Assembly: GCF_000212735.1 (NCBI RefSeq)
Contig: NC_015510.1
Span: 6,077,001 to 6,141,000 of the forward strand
Direction: 5' to 3'
Origin: Haliscomenobacter hydrossis DSM 1100
GTDB taxonomy: Bacteria > Bacteroidota > Bacteroidia > Chitinophagales > Saprospiraceae
DNA length: 64,000 bases
The notes under the pieces were generated by a model. The model searched no databases. It had not been told where the DNA came from and saw only the letters and a program-made list of their open reading frames with translations. Position numbers and translations under genes: made by a program. Shown here piece by piece: positions 17,714-24,911 of this stretch (positions are counted from its first letter, which is position 1; each line of letters opens with the position of its first letter).

Positions 17714-18003
17714 CTAAGGTGTTCTAAGGTGCCTAAGGTCTGTCGATTACCCACAAATCCGCACATTGAATGCGAGATTGTGCTTTAGCTTCAGAACCCC
17801 AACCCCTAAAGGGAGTATATTTTCGATAATCGTAATATTTCCCCCTTTTTTAGAAAAAGTAAGGCCTTTTAGTTACCTAAAATGTGCTCCCCTTTAGGGG
17901 TCGGGGGTTCTGAGGCCGCAGTAAAATGCTCAATATCAACCACAAACCTAATTAGGGGATTTGTGGGTAATCGACAGACCTTAGACACCTTAGAGCACCT
18001 TAG
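17714..18003. repeat. CTAAGGTG-type heptamer arms around MITE copy 1
   Basis: The left arm (17714-17739) and right arm (17978-18003) are inverted copies of a CTAAGGTG-type word repeated three times, with a few mismatches. The MITE sits exactly between them. The rest of the gap from 17673 to 18070 holds no gene that I can support. Confidence 0.8.
17740..17977. mobile_element. MITE copy 1 (238 bp, non-coding)
   Basis: The ends are perfect 21-base inverted repeats beginning CTGTCGATTACCCACAAATC. Inside is a second nested palindrome around CAACCCCTAAAGG. It is identical to copy 2 (23019-23258) except for two single-base length differences. The ends closely match those of the Tn5-like insertion sequence at 21398-22946, so that transposase or a relative probably moves it. 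No direct target duplication is visible at this copy. Confidence 0.85.
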
Positions 18004-21000: not shown

Positions 21001-21361
21001 AGAATTGCGGAGTTGTTATGCAGAAAATCAGGGAAATGGGCAATTTGTGCTCCAGGCCCTGCCTTTACTGGCCCAACAATCGCCCATTTTTGGATTCCTG
21101 GTCAAAGATTTTGACCGGGATGGGCATTTGGATGCCTTGGCTACGGGTAATTTTTATCCCAATGAAGGGCATATGGGCAGGCAAGATGCTTCACGGGGGA
21201 TTTGGTTAAAGGGGAATGGAAAGGGTGGCTTTGTGGTGGTGGCGAATGAGCAGAGTGGTTTGAGTATTCCGGGTGATGCGCGGCGGTCTTATTGGATCGA
21301 TGCAACGCGGTTTTTTACGACTGTGAATGGTGGGGAGGTTTTGGTTCAAAAAATCAATTAA
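18071..21361 (+). CDS. FG-GAP/VCBS repeat lipoprotein with ASPIC/UnbV domain (CRTAC1 family)
   Basis: The 1096-residue protein has a lipoprotein signal ending SLFGC at Cys21. It carries about 14 Ca-binding motifs of the FG-GAP/VCBS type (DFNRDGLPD, DINQDGWDD, DLDQDGDLD, DYDGDGDLD and others), consistent with two beta-propellers. Between them, near residues 515-600, is an ASPIC/UnbV domain (NRSGIGAVVKVWAQGKAQ, VRGYLSSVETGVLIGVG). Such proteins commonly follow SusC/SusD pairs in Bacteroidota; their function is not established, but surface binding is likely. The gene is bracketed by two MITE copies. Confidence 0.9.
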   Translation: MSARTLNLSWLIVAICSLFGCKKTDLLFEKITPAHSNIHFNNQLSPDATLNAFTFTNFYNGGGVGVGDFNRDGLPDLFFTGNQVSCELYLNRGDFQFESITEKAGLKTDRWCSGVSIVDINQDGWDDIYLSVAQGPGLKNAHNLLYINQKTSSPSFVESARAYGLDYNGFTTQSAFFDYDLDGDLDAFLLNTAPDLQNPSVLRRQMNNGFYPSTDKLLRNEGSDKAGHPVFVDVSAEAGIRFEGLGLGIAISDLNQDGYPDIYCSNDFMSSDILYLNQGDGTFKNVIQSATAHTSQFGMGLDAADLNNDAKIDLFQLDMLPEDNARQKQMLGKHDYDKKELSISPEYGYQLQYMRNMLQINTGNDAQGPVFSEMGLLAGVAKTDWSWATLLSDLDLDGHKDIFITTGYRKNITDLDFIHYYQGSTYFGSDASRAEVREKLLSQVPEVKLRNCAYRNLGDLGFENVAKAWGLDELSYANGAAYADLDQDGDLDLVVNNVDAEASVFKNQSRERQQQNYLKVAFQGPEGNRSGIGAVVKVWAQGKAQLYEHFPVRGYLSSVETGVLIGVGKHKVIDSVQVWWSKDLQETRYKVAANQSLIVKQAEAKPKVNDAAPTAKIFESLPQLLPYQHKASDFNDFNQTFALHKMLSKNGPAAAVGDLNGDGLNDVVFGGAYRGSPGNIFIQQKNGSFKALPGLNAAEVETGDLAIFDADGDGDQDILSVGAGNERPLDVKTAYQPILWLNDGQAQFTRTNQFPPLAVSSQTVRPFDYDGDGDLDLFIGGRQIPGAYPLAAASYLLRNDRGRFTDVSQKIAPDLAKLGLVCAALPLDIDQDKDTDLVLVGEWMPTTVLEYKNGRFFTKTLTNTEGWWNSLAAGDFDQDGDLDLLLGNEGLNTFYRASPTEPIQMLAKDFNQDGKVDPIMGYFIQGKCVPALPRDALNQQMVQFRRKYPLYAEYAKVGFADLFSKKERTDAQQLQAKELRSCYAENQGNGQFVLQALPLLAQQSPIFGFLVKDFDRDGHLDALATGNFYPNEGHMGRQDASRGIWLKGNGKGGFVVVANEQSGLSIPGDARRSYWIDATRFFTTVNGGEVLVQKIN

Positions 21362-21397
21362 CACTAGAGACACTATACTTCTAAGGTGTTCTAAGGT

Positions 21398-22946
21398 CTG
21401 TCAATTACCCACAAAACCTCAAAATAGATTTGGGGTACTCGGAAAGAAGTTCATTGAGAGAATGTAATGTAAGCATCAACAAGAGTTTTGAGTCTTTCTA
21501 GGGCTCTGGTCAAGATGATGATACCAGGTACGGGCTGTCGTTTAGAAGGCAAAAAGCCACCAATTCGGCCCAAGGTGATGCAAAACTGCTTGACGGTTGG
21601 GGGGCTTTTGGGGTCATAGTGGACGTCAAGGTTTAGCCTTTTTTCCGCATAGGTATAAAGGACCTTGTAGCTGAGGTCATCGATGCCGATTTGATCGATG
21701 GTTTGATCTGGATCGGTATCGCAGTAGTATCGGAGTTGTAGAGCATCCATAGCGGCAATACTGTAGGTAGTGATGGCATTTTTGAGTCGATGAGGTAAAG
21801 CTAATTGAAGTTTTTCAACCGAAGCGCCACCACTCTTTAAAATAAAATGGAAGCGTTCGATGATCCATCTTAACACGTAGTAGCGACAAATCTGGACGGC
21901 ATCCTGGAAGGATTGCACATCTAAAGAAGTCAACAATCGCCAATGGATAGTATGTTCCTGATCTTGCTTGGCTGGGACTTCCCGGATATCTACCACATTC
22001 AAGGCAATTGGAGGGAGGTGTTGCTTATGGGGCAAGGGGTTTTTCAATTTTACTACTACGGCACCAAATCTTATTTCCAGATTAGCCGTACGCCACCTTT
22101 TGCTTGTCGAACAAAATACCTGAGTTTGGTAGGTTCCTTGAGCGGTCCAACTATCAACGGTCGGGCCTAAATTGCTCTGACCATCGCACAGTTTGCGATC
22201 ATGGTTGGAGCGGATCAAAAAATGCATCCCAGGAGCTGATCGCTCAGCAAACAATTCTAGAATATCAGCTTCTCGATCTGCAACATAAACCACCTCAAGT
22301 CCTTGGGTTTGGCTAAAAGTTTGTCCGCAATCAAAGTGATCAAGCCAGCGAGCGCTTTCCTTATCTTGAATTGGTTCGTGGAGACGCTCTGCGCTTTTGC
22401 CCAGTTTCTCGTCCTTACGGATATGAAAAGTTTGCTTCAATAACCCAAGAGGCTGGCCTTGTTCGCTCACCAAAAGGCTATTATGCAAATGCAGACCCCG
22501 ATGTTTGATGTATTTCAGAGGGCCAAGATGTTTAGCGCAGCGGTGGCGGGTGTAGTTCAACTCAACTGTATCACTAATTTGCAAAACCCTAAGTGGACGC
22601 TCTTTACTTGGTGGTAAGCTACTGATAATATCCTGAAAATGAAGCGCCAACTGTCCTTGTGGGGTCACTTTTTCGTTATCCCACAGCCGATATGTCCCTT
22701 TGATAGCTTTCCATTCCAGGTTCGCTTGGGGTACCGTCGCATTCATTTGTGCACTCAAATGACGTAAAACGCTCCGATAACGACTTTCCAATCGCTTATC
22801 TCCCAAGCAAGATGTACTATATTTTTTTGCCCCTTTCATTCAGCAAAAAAATACATTTTTGTTTTGCTTACATTACATAACCTCAATGAACTTCTTGGTC
22901 GTTTACGCTCAAATCCAGATTTGTCGGTTTTGTGGGTAATTGACAG
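21398..22946 (-). mobile_element. IS4-group (Tn5/IS50-like) insertion sequence, about 1.55 kb
   Basis: The ends CTGTCAATTACCCACAAAAC are perfect inverted repeats, with a further subterminal inverted match around AGAAGTTCATTGAG and ATGTAATGTAAGC. The element is flanked by a 10-bp direct duplication GTTCTAAGGT and encodes one intact transposase. It looks complete and possibly active. Confidence 0.93.
21451..22839 (-). CDS. Tn5-like DDE transposase (IS4 group)
   Basis: The 462-residue protein has the N-terminal Tn5-type DNA-binding domain (LGDKRLESRYRSVLRHLS, EWKAIKGTYRLWDN). The catalytic core shows Asp90 (ISD), Asp188 (VAD) and Glu328, close to the D97/D188/E326 triad of Tn5. The IS4 YREK signature is intact: Tyr321, Arg324, Glu328, Lys335 with spacing 2-3-6 in YVLRWIIERFHFILK. 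It cuts and pastes its own element and probably acts on the two MITEs, which have nearly the same ends. The frame is intact, so activity is possible. Confidence 0.95.
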   Translation of the reverse strand: MKGAKKYSTSCLGDKRLESRYRSVLRHLSAQMNATVPQANLEWKAIKGTYRLWDNEKVTPQGQLALHFQDIISSLPPSKERPLRVLQISDTVELNYTRHRCAKHLGPLKYIKHRGLHLHNSLLVSEQGQPLGLLKQTFHIRKDEKLGKSAERLHEPIQDKESARWLDHFDCGQTFSQTQGLEVVYVADREADILELFAERSAPGMHFLIRSNHDRKLCDGQSNLGPTVDSWTAQGTYQTQVFCSTSKRWRTANLEIRFGAVVVKLKNPLPHKQHLPPIALNVVDIREVPAKQDQEHTIHWRLLTSLDVQSFQDAVQICRYYVLRWIIERFHFILKSGGASVEKLQLALPHRLKNAITTYSIAAMDALQLRYYCDTDPDQTIDQIGIDDLSYKVLYTYAEKRLNLDVHYDPKSPPTVKQFCITLGRIGGFLPSKRQPVPGIIILTRALERLKTLVDAYITFSQ

Positions 22947-23018
22947 GTTCTAAGGTGTCTAAGGTGGTTCAAATTAAATATTTCTTCATGTTATACTTGT
23001 TTTTGAACCACCTTAGGC

Positions 23019-23258
23019 CTGTCGATTACCCACAAATCCGCACATTGAATGCGAGATTGTGCTTTAGCTTCAGAACCCCCAACCCCTAAAGGGGAGTATA
23101 TTTTCGATAATCGTAATATTTCCCCCTTTTTTAGAAAAAGTAAGGCCTTTTAGTTACCTAAAATGTGCTCCCCTTTAGGGGTCGGGGGTTCTGAGGCCGC
23201 AGTAAAATGCTCAATATCAACCACAAACCTAATTAGGGGATTTGTGGGTAATCGACAG
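23019..23258. mobile_element. MITE copy 2 (240 bp, non-coding)
   Basis: It has the same 21-base terminal inverted repeats and body as copy 1. It is flanked by a perfect 9-bp direct duplication ACCTTAGGC (23010-23018 and 23259-23267), evidence for true transposition. The 9-bp size fits Tn5-type transposases. Confidence 0.9.
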
Positions 23259-23297
23259 ACCTTAGGCACCTTAGAACACCTTAGAAGTTATACAATT

Positions 23298-24911
23298 CTA
23301 ATTTACCACGACCCTACCAATTTTCCGTTCCTTCCCCATCGACACCTCAATGAAGTACGTGCCCGGGGGCCAGTTACTCACCGGTATCACCTCCTGTTGA
23401 ATGCCCGGAAACATCACCTCTACCTGTTTGGCGTAAATGGGTTGGCCCAACATATTGAGTGCCCGCACGCTCAGTGGGCTTTTTTCGGGTTGATCTATCG
23501 TCAAGGTGATGCTCGAACGCGCTGGGTTCGGGTAGATCAACATGCCCTTAAAATCATCGGGAACCGTGCGACAATCCTGCCGCAAATGCTCCAAACTACG
23601 GTACACATTCAATCGGCCTCCGGTAGTGGTGTATTCCTTCAACGATTCAATCTCGTCCACCCCTTTGAGCAATGCCTCTTTCACCCGCAAGGCGGTCTCG
23701 GAAGGCTCAATGAGGGTTTTTTGGGCAAAATCACGGCAAGGTACGCTGTACAAAAGGGCAATAGAGCCGGCCAGGTGCGGTGCTGCGGCTGAGTTGCCAT
23801 GAAAACTCCCATAGGTACCGAAGGGCTTGGTCGTAAAGGAATTTTGCCCCGGAGCACCCATGTCAATCGAGGTTTTCCCGTACGCTGAACCCACGTAGCG
23901 CTGGTCTATTTCGGTGGTATTGAGTACTGTAAGCAAGTACTCGCTGGGGCAAGTTGTGGGCATATCACCTACTTCATCAACGTCCCAAGGATTGTTGGCA
24001 GCCCCGGCGGCGGTGAGTACCCCCACTTCGCCGAGTCGGTCGTACATGGCACCCCACAGCGGCTGGTCTTTGCAAAACAGCCGATTGATGCCGAAGGAGG
24101 CATTAGTAGCCACCACAAAGGCCCCTTCTTTGCCTTTGGAGCGGTTGTAGCGGTCGCGCTGTTCGATGATGTACTCGTAAGCAGAGATGATTTCCGATAC
24201 CAGACGGGCTTCCAGTACCATCACTTTGATGTGCCAGTTGATGCCACTTACTCCGATACCGTTGTTGCCTACCGCGCCAATGATGCCTGCTACCGATTGC
24301 CCGTGTTGTTCAACCAGGTGGGTTCGTCGGTTTTGGATAAAATTCCAGCCCTGGGTATCGTCGATGTATCCATTGCGGTCGTTGTCTTTGCCATCGTTGG
24401 GTATTTCGCCCCGATTGACCCAAATGTTGGGGGCCAGGTCTTCATGGTCTACATCAAAACCACTGTCCAATACCGCCACGACAATGGTATCCCCACGTGC
24501 AGTCACCCCTCCCGTAGTGATGGCCCAGGCTTTTTCGGCCTGGATGGTGGCCAGGCCCCATTGTTCCTGTAGGTTGGGATCATCGGGATCGGTACGGCTT
24601 TCGACGTAATAATCAAAGGCAACTTCCTCTACATCGGGTTGTAGCCGTAGCTCTTCCAGTAGTTCGTCTGAGGTGATACTGGTCGAATCGTACATCATCA
24701 AGTGTACGTTGGAGCGTATACTTAAGGATTTTTCCAACCAAACCCCTCCTCCAGCCCGGCTTTGCGTCGCGAATTCGACGATGAACTGGGCGGGTGTGGT
24801 GGCTTCCTTAAGTTTAACCAATACTCTGGCTTTGATTGGCCCCGTTTGTGCATGCGTCAGCAGGGCCAAAAGCAAGAGCAGTGGCAACAGAAGTGTTCGT
24901 CTTCTTACCAT
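23298..24911 (-). CDS. Secreted subtilisin-like (S8) peptidase with T9SS tail
   Basis: The 537-residue protein has a signal peptide (LLLLLALLTHAQ), a propeptide to about residue 110, then an S8 catalytic domain. The predicted triad is Asp149 (VAVLDSGFD), His203 (EQHGQSVAG) and Ser374 (HGNSAAAPHLAG), with Asn270 as a plausible oxyanion residue. The His and Ser motifs differ from the usual HGT and GTSMA forms. The last 80 residues are a T9SS sorting domain (MLIYPNPARSSITLTI, then PPGTYFIEV and GRVVVN). It is therefore probably an exported or surface protease. It converges on the mobile-element region. Confidence 0.92.
   Translation of the reverse strand: MVRRRTLLLPLLLLLALLTHAQTGPIKARVLVKLKEATTPAQFIVEFATQSRAGGGVWLEKSLSIRSNVHLMMYDSTSITSDELLEELRLQPDVEEVAFDYYVESRTDPDDPNLQEQWGLATIQAEKAWAITTGGVTARGDTIVVAVLDSGFDVDHEDLAPNIWVNRGEIPNDGKDNDRNGYIDDTQGWNFIQNRRTHLVEQHGQSVAGIIGAVGNNGIGVSGINWHIKVMVLEARLVSEIISAYEYIIEQRDRYNRSKGKEGAFVVATNASFGINRLFCKDQPLWGAMYDRLGEVGVLTAAGAANNPWDVDEVGDMPTTCPSEYLLTVLNTTEIDQRYVGSAYGKTSIDMGAPGQNSFTTKPFGTYGSFHGNSAAAPHLAGSIALLYSVPCRDFAQKTLIEPSETALRVKEALLKGVDEIESLKEYTTTGGRLNVYRSLEHLRQDCRTVPDDFKGMLIYPNPARSSITLTIDQPEKSPLSVRALNMLGQPIYAKQVEVMFPGIQQEVIPVSNWPPGTYFIEVSMGKERKIGRVVVN

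Follow-up and report, generated by a model that had tools for sequence, protein, structure and literature searches.

A Tn5-like insertion sequence and MITEs with the same ends lie preferentially in the arms of an intergenic palindrome family of Haliscomenobacter hydrossis

Introduction

Insertion specific for REP sequences has been described by Tobes and Pareja for several insertion sequence (IS) families, including the IS4-family element ISRm22 of Sinorhizobium meliloti, and the same survey notes a preference of Tn5 for similar sites that are clustered (PMC1525189). The target consensus of Tn5 itself is AGNTYWRANCT (PMC3046479). In staphylococci, IS1272 and TnSha1 target hairpins between genes with no primary-sequence specificity, yielding no target duplication and a blunt deletion of the stem-loop (PMC4923244). 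Here, we describe an IS4-family element of Haliscomenobacter hydrossis DSM 1100 (genome size 8,771,651 bp; the four contigs include an 8,371,686-bp chromosome and a 92,189-bp plasmid; PMC3156403), starting from a stretch of 64,000 nucleotides of its chromosome, hereafter the window.

Results

One palindrome carries an IS in one arm and a MITE in the other

The palindrome lies in the window between two convergent genes. One, which encodes an FG-GAP/ASPIC-UnbV protein, ends at 21361; the other encodes a subtilase with a secretion tail and ends at 23298. The outer part of the left palindrome arm consists of two tandem CTAAGGTG units that reach the IS (21377..21397, plus strand) and is 100% complementary to the outer part of the right arm (23268..23288, minus strand). 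One tandem unit, the 10 bp GTTCTAAGGT at 21388..21397 (plus strand), is the left copy of the target duplication of the IS, the right copy of which follows at 22947..22956 (plus strand). Between the two copies lies a 1549 bp IS of the IS4 family, Tn5-like (21398..22946, minus strand), with terminal inverted repeats at 21398-21425 and 22919-22946, read directly as CTGTCAATTACCCACAAA plus its inverse, and with a transposase ORF of 462 aa (21451..22839, minus strand). The palindrome then continues with the inner part of the left arm, GTCTAAGGTGGTTCAAA (22957..22973, plus strand), a loop of 28 nt (22974..23001), and the inner part of the right arm (23002..23018, minus strand), which includes the left copy of the 9 bp MITE duplication ACCTTAGGC (23010-23018). 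The 240 bp MITE-I (23019..23258) lacks a transposase gene and has ends in common with the IS, read directly as CTGTCGATTACCCACAAA; the right 9 bp copy of ACCTTAGGC (23259..23267, minus strand) separates it from the outer right arm.

The IS and the MITE occupy opposite arms of a single palindrome. Direct re-reading confirmed the boundaries and the 10-bp and 9-bp repeats given for the two elements in the first-pass annotation, and excising both elements with one repeat each recovered a 104-nt palindrome whose arms show the two differences noted there: a T/C substitution, equivalent to a G-U pair in RNA, and an inserted A farther from the centre. The rebuilt palindrome folds as a single hairpin of 38 uninterrupted pairs, at -66.8 kcal/mol and with a z score of -17.5 relative to dinucleotide shuffles.

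The transposase belongs to the IS50/Tn5-like group of the IS4 family

The transposase matched PF14706 of Pfam (Tnp_DNA_bind, N-terminal) at 1.8e-12 and the NCBIfam IS4-family model NF033590 at 8e-90, with NF033590 and NF049926 both above cut-off, and it matched Tn5 transposase structures over its full length at 8.7e-27. Its catalytic residues align with those of Tn5 transposase (DT, DREAD and Y..R...E......K, as isDt, vaDreadi and YvlRwiiErfhfilK), such that the DDE triad and the Y(2)R(3)E(6)K signature of the IS50/Tn5-like group are both present, as are the terminal inverted repeats and a duplication within the ~9-12 bp of this group. Stem-loop replacement without target duplication, which marks the IS1182 family (IS1272), does not describe the element, most copies of which carry 9-10-bp duplications; only L006, L040 and L041 lack both loop and duplication. 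A transposase search in genome contigs returned only a 33% relative, and our literature search found no paper naming the IS, turning up only other ISHahy elements.

Thirty elements share the terminal repeat

A genome census found 30 elements with the shared terminal repeat, comprising 6 IS, 20 MITE-I and 4 MITE-II. About 18 MITE-I copies are near-identical and two are diverged (91% and 81%). The MITE-II copies, found via the shared ends (chromosome 1017258-1017504, 3599397-3599643, 4633393-4633639 and 5465278-5465508), are 231-247 bp long and have a highly palindromic interior (AACACGACGACACGACG...) unrelated to that of MITE-I, whereas their ends and their target do not differ. As is usual for MITEs, the elements are short, lack a transposase, bear the ends of an autonomous partner, have duplications of their own and exist in several copies. 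Scanning with the 18-bp terminal sequence (≤2 mismatches) gave 66 ends, compared with 1 in a control, and nearly all belong to the 30 elements; the remainder are decayed or weak matches and a solitary end at 5209510, which adjoins a degraded palindrome arm and seems to be what is left of an old insertion. In the plasmid IS, the left end is missing: at C4:60720-62486, a MITE is joined directly to an IS that lacks the first 19 bp, and a palindrome arm lies on either side of the pair. The IS copies L005 and L006 carry an identical set of three 1-bp deletions, and the defective L005 has an intact 9-bp duplication, which suggests mobilisation in trans. The MITEs were most likely moved in trans by the IS transposase.

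Most elements lie within one intergenic palindrome family

Pattern searches recovered about 37 intergenic palindrome loci. Elements occupy about 22 of these, with four loci hit twice, an occupancy that is somewhat overestimated because some loci were recognised via their elements. The arms are of two types, A (CTAAGGTGTTCTAAGGTGCCTAAGGTGGTTCAAA) and B (...AAGTGCCTTAGGTTTCTTAGGTGGTGAAA). In total, 26/30 elements lie inside the family (IS 4/6, MITE-I 18/20, MITE-II 4/4), whereas the palindromes make up ~0.05% of the genome and ~0.5% of the non-coding DNA, so that 0.015 or about 0.14-0.15 elements, respectively, would be expected there by chance. Even when only non-coding DNA is considered, a chance origin of the window arrangement is thus excluded. 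Targeting of the family is strong and not absolute, since four insertions lie elsewhere: L001 (TCCCTGGGT), L005 (ATCATAGGT), L026 (TTCTCAACCT), which is surrounded by a loose, AACCT-rich array, and L039 (ATGTTTCAT), which spans a plasmid ORF. With these copies, one of the outcomes named in the first-pass annotation as refuting does occur, as a minority of 4/30. Among the palindromic copies, L004, L006, L038 and L040-L042 are without a clean duplication.

All tabulated palindromes are intergenic, and selection against gene insertions contributes to the distribution of the elements. The flanking genes, judged from ORFs, are convergent at 10, divergent at 6 and co-directional at 15 loci, and with orientations so mixed, terminators of convergent genes were rejected as a full account of the palindromes. 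Rfam gave only sub-threshold matches to plant and animal miRNA hairpins, which were taken as chance matches to inverted repeats. The palindromes resemble REPs/BIMEs in being dispersed and intergenic, and differ in lacking RAYT association: the genome has seven Y1_Tnp loci (six intact frames and one with a stop), none flanked by the repeat or with a palindrome cluster within 1.5 kb, and a RAYT-driven origin was rejected. Four chromosomal loci (743000, 3777210, 7633820 and 8303440) have an inside-out layout, with the right arm followed directly by the left arm.

Insertions fall between tandem units and duplicate exactly one

The insertion points have tandem CTWAGGTG units on both sides. A single whole unit is duplicated, and the length of the duplication tracks the unit spacing, with 9 bp at 9-bp spacing and 10 bp at 10-bp spacing. 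The 10-bp duplications are those of the window IS and of L035 (GCTCTAAGGT), and the 9-bp duplications in palindromes, once co-oriented, have the consensus G-Y-C-T-W-A-G-G-T, with one deviation at each of four positions; nearly all of the latter have another CTWAGGT-like unit just before them. Duplication register and unit spacing together place the cut at GGT^G on both sides, by which exactly one unit is duplicated. The innermost unit of type-B palindromes, without the leading G, is never used.

Background counts were obtained from an even 1.2-Mb sample of the genome, which has 78 CTWAGGT sites not belonging to arrays; 15 of these are non-coding, extrapolating to ~110 non-coding sites genome-wide. 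None of these ~110 isolated sites is occupied, compared with 24 hits in ~152 palindromic units (Fisher p ~1e-6, or 2e-4 when the estimate is replaced by its lower bound, 61), indicating that the 7-bp core alone is insufficient. Tandem CTWAGGTG arrays are essentially confined to the palindromes. The CTAAGGT-containing palindrome was initially put forward as the target; CTWAGGTG units indeed stand in tandem at the insertion points, and the visible recognised feature is the pair of units, which is narrower than the palindrome. As the IS, MITE-I and MITE-II share only their ends yet use the same target, it is the transposase that sets the target.

Orthologous palindromes are empty in sister species

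Searching for empty sites in relatives, a check suggested in the first-pass annotation, revealed an uninterrupted palindrome at the position of the window locus in the sister genome G125, between the orthologous gene pair (subtilase 86% identical). Searching four congeners with the flanks of 18 palindromes revealed intact unoccupied palindromes at eight further loci that are occupied in H. hydrossis (754400, 863500, 1280760, 3958680, 5934918, 6094850, 6223500 and 7633820), giving nine such loci including the window locus and indicating that the palindromes are older than the insertions. For presence or absence of the palindromes themselves, the intergenic alignments are too diverged to place a junction. 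A search of G125, which has 65 intact palindromes by the strict pattern, found no IS of this Tn5-like kind and one 80% MITE, inside a palindrome and with the duplication GTCTTAGAT. Two IS ends were found in the fragmented assembly G199, 2/2 in palindromes. Among 199 genomes of the family, the strict pattern matched only H. hydrossis and G125; in G199 and G200, both outside that sample, the orthologous loci show that palindromes are present.

Loop-less copies

A second palindrome in the window has a left arm of three tandem units (17714..17739, plus strand) and a right arm (17978..18003, minus strand), between which a MITE-I copy without target duplication (17740..17977) takes the place of the loop that the G200 ortholog keeps. 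Elements directly between both arms, with neither loop nor duplication, were found at 6094740 (this locus, window 17714-18003), at 863452 and at C4:60720 on the plasmid. Such copies would result if elements in the two arms recombined, and locus 529640, where MITEs sit in the same orientation in both arms, has the layout expected of the intermediate. Alternatively, they may have arisen by direct stem-loop replacement as in IS1272 (PMC4923244).

Palindrome arms change between species and stay complementary

At 103830, 863500, 3958680, 6223500 and the window locus, the arm type differs between species with the arms still complementary; such type switching is seen on comparing L249, L287, L294, L298 and L302 with their H. 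hydrossis counterparts. The window locus has 17 arm positions with the same change in both arms and 3 with a change in a single arm. At 863500, the loops establish true orthology, and each of the three differences between G200 and G125 has its counterpart in the opposite arm. Many one-arm changes were found at other loci, and arm symmetry does not hold throughout. The co-change may stem from selection on pairing, from template-switch correction or from inter-locus conversion. In G199, the loop of L275 has the reverse-complement sequence of its H. hydrossis equivalent (chromosome 6223310-6223670), suggesting inversion between the arms, and at L289 and L293, orthologous to 7968958, each species has a different, unrelated palindrome at one convergent intergenic site, suggesting hairpin turnover.

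Discussion

It is very probable that a Tn5-like (IS4-family) element and its MITEs insert preferentially into the arms of an older intergenic palindrome family with duplication of one unit, and the census together with the empty orthologous palindromes bears out the targeting proposed in the first-pass annotation. We propose a putative cut-and-paste element, accompanied by non-autonomous MITEs, whose transposase would prefer the arms of this genus-restricted family, built of tandem 9-10-bp units (CTWAGGTGNN). A staggered cut at the GGT^G step of two adjacent units would duplicate exactly one unit of 9 or 10 bp, and either arm and either orientation can be used, by which an IS and a MITE came to occupy opposite arms of a single palindrome. 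Landing between genes would spare the host and let the element persist.

The recognised feature is, we infer, the tandem motif and not the hairpin. Since tandem CTWAGGTG arrays are essentially found only in palindromes, structure is inseparable from motif, and recognition of the hairpin or cruciform itself, as by IS1272, would also account for the vacancy of the isolated CTWAGGT sites; the MITE of L040, which replaces the loop with junctions opposite each other in the stem, resembles the blunt stem-loop deletions of IS1272 (PMC4923244). We nevertheless regard such recognition as unlikely, as the majority of palindromic copies retain the loop and show a clean 9-10-bp duplication in one arm, the 9-bp target is near-invariant where IS1272-type targeting is without primary-sequence specificity, and the innermost type-B unit is never hit.

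Two other accounts fare considerably worse. That MITE copies are near-identical and arms alike across loci would fit a joint spread of palindrome and MITE as a composite repeat, the copies not being independent insertions; this is very improbable, because the loop, the neighbouring genes, the orientation of the MITE and the arm and unit that were hit vary by locus, and sister species have palindromes at the same loci with no MITE. Random insertion with survival only in dispensable intergenic palindromes, for which the intergenic position of every tabulated palindrome and selection against gene insertions could speak, hardly deserves credence: 0.14 of 30 elements would be expected in the palindromes where 26 are observed, and the common sequence and register of the duplications contradict randomness.

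The closest precedent is ISRm22 in the REPs of S. meliloti, which likewise has an IS4-family transposase and of which practically every copy lies in one intergenic family of palindromic repeats, often clustered; it differs in its 6-bp duplications and REP target, compared with 9-10 bp and a long arm of tandem decamers in H. hydrossis, and the sections of the survey used here describe no MITEs with the same target, which H. hydrossis has (PMC1525189). As REP targeting by the IS4 family is already published, the H. hydrossis case varies a known theme with an unusual target architecture. With Tn5/IS50, the element shares full-length transposase homology, a 9-bp duplication and a symmetric YWR centre, its consensus retaining the G and the YWR centre of AGNTYWRANCT (PMC3046479) with C/G in place of T/A at positions 3 and 7; the Tn5 bias is weak, whereas the H. 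hydrossis insertions lie mostly in one repeat family. IS1397 and ISKpn1 (IS3 family) and IS621 (IS110 family), insert into enterobacterial REPs, and IS1397 and IS621 were the likeness first suggested. The likeness holds for the ecology, insertion into intergenic palindromic repeats, but their transposase families and chemistry are unrelated, and ISRm22 is closer. IS1272 and TnSha1 share intergenic hairpins as targets and differ from the H. hydrossis element in that the latter mostly leaves clean duplications with a sequence consensus.

The palindromes serve the IS and two kinds of MITE as a harmless landing pad that is still empty in sister species. Less expected than REP-type targeting is that the arms differ between species yet stay complementary. 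Tentatively, the palindromes may constitute an undescribed class of bacterial repeat, with arm types switching between species at the same locus and arms replaced or corrected in concert, and with a transposase tuned to the tandem period that duplicates exactly one unit (9 or 10 bp).

With three element types, shared ends, a near-invariant 9-bp target, two unit lengths and empty orthologous sites, the system is a natural experiment on Tn5-like target choice, and comparison with Tn5 could locate the target determinant in the transposase. It extends palindrome targeting by the IS4 family, as described for the proteobacterial ISRm22, to the Bacteroidota, and palindromes with concerted arm change offer a test bed for the upkeep of long perfect inverted repeats.
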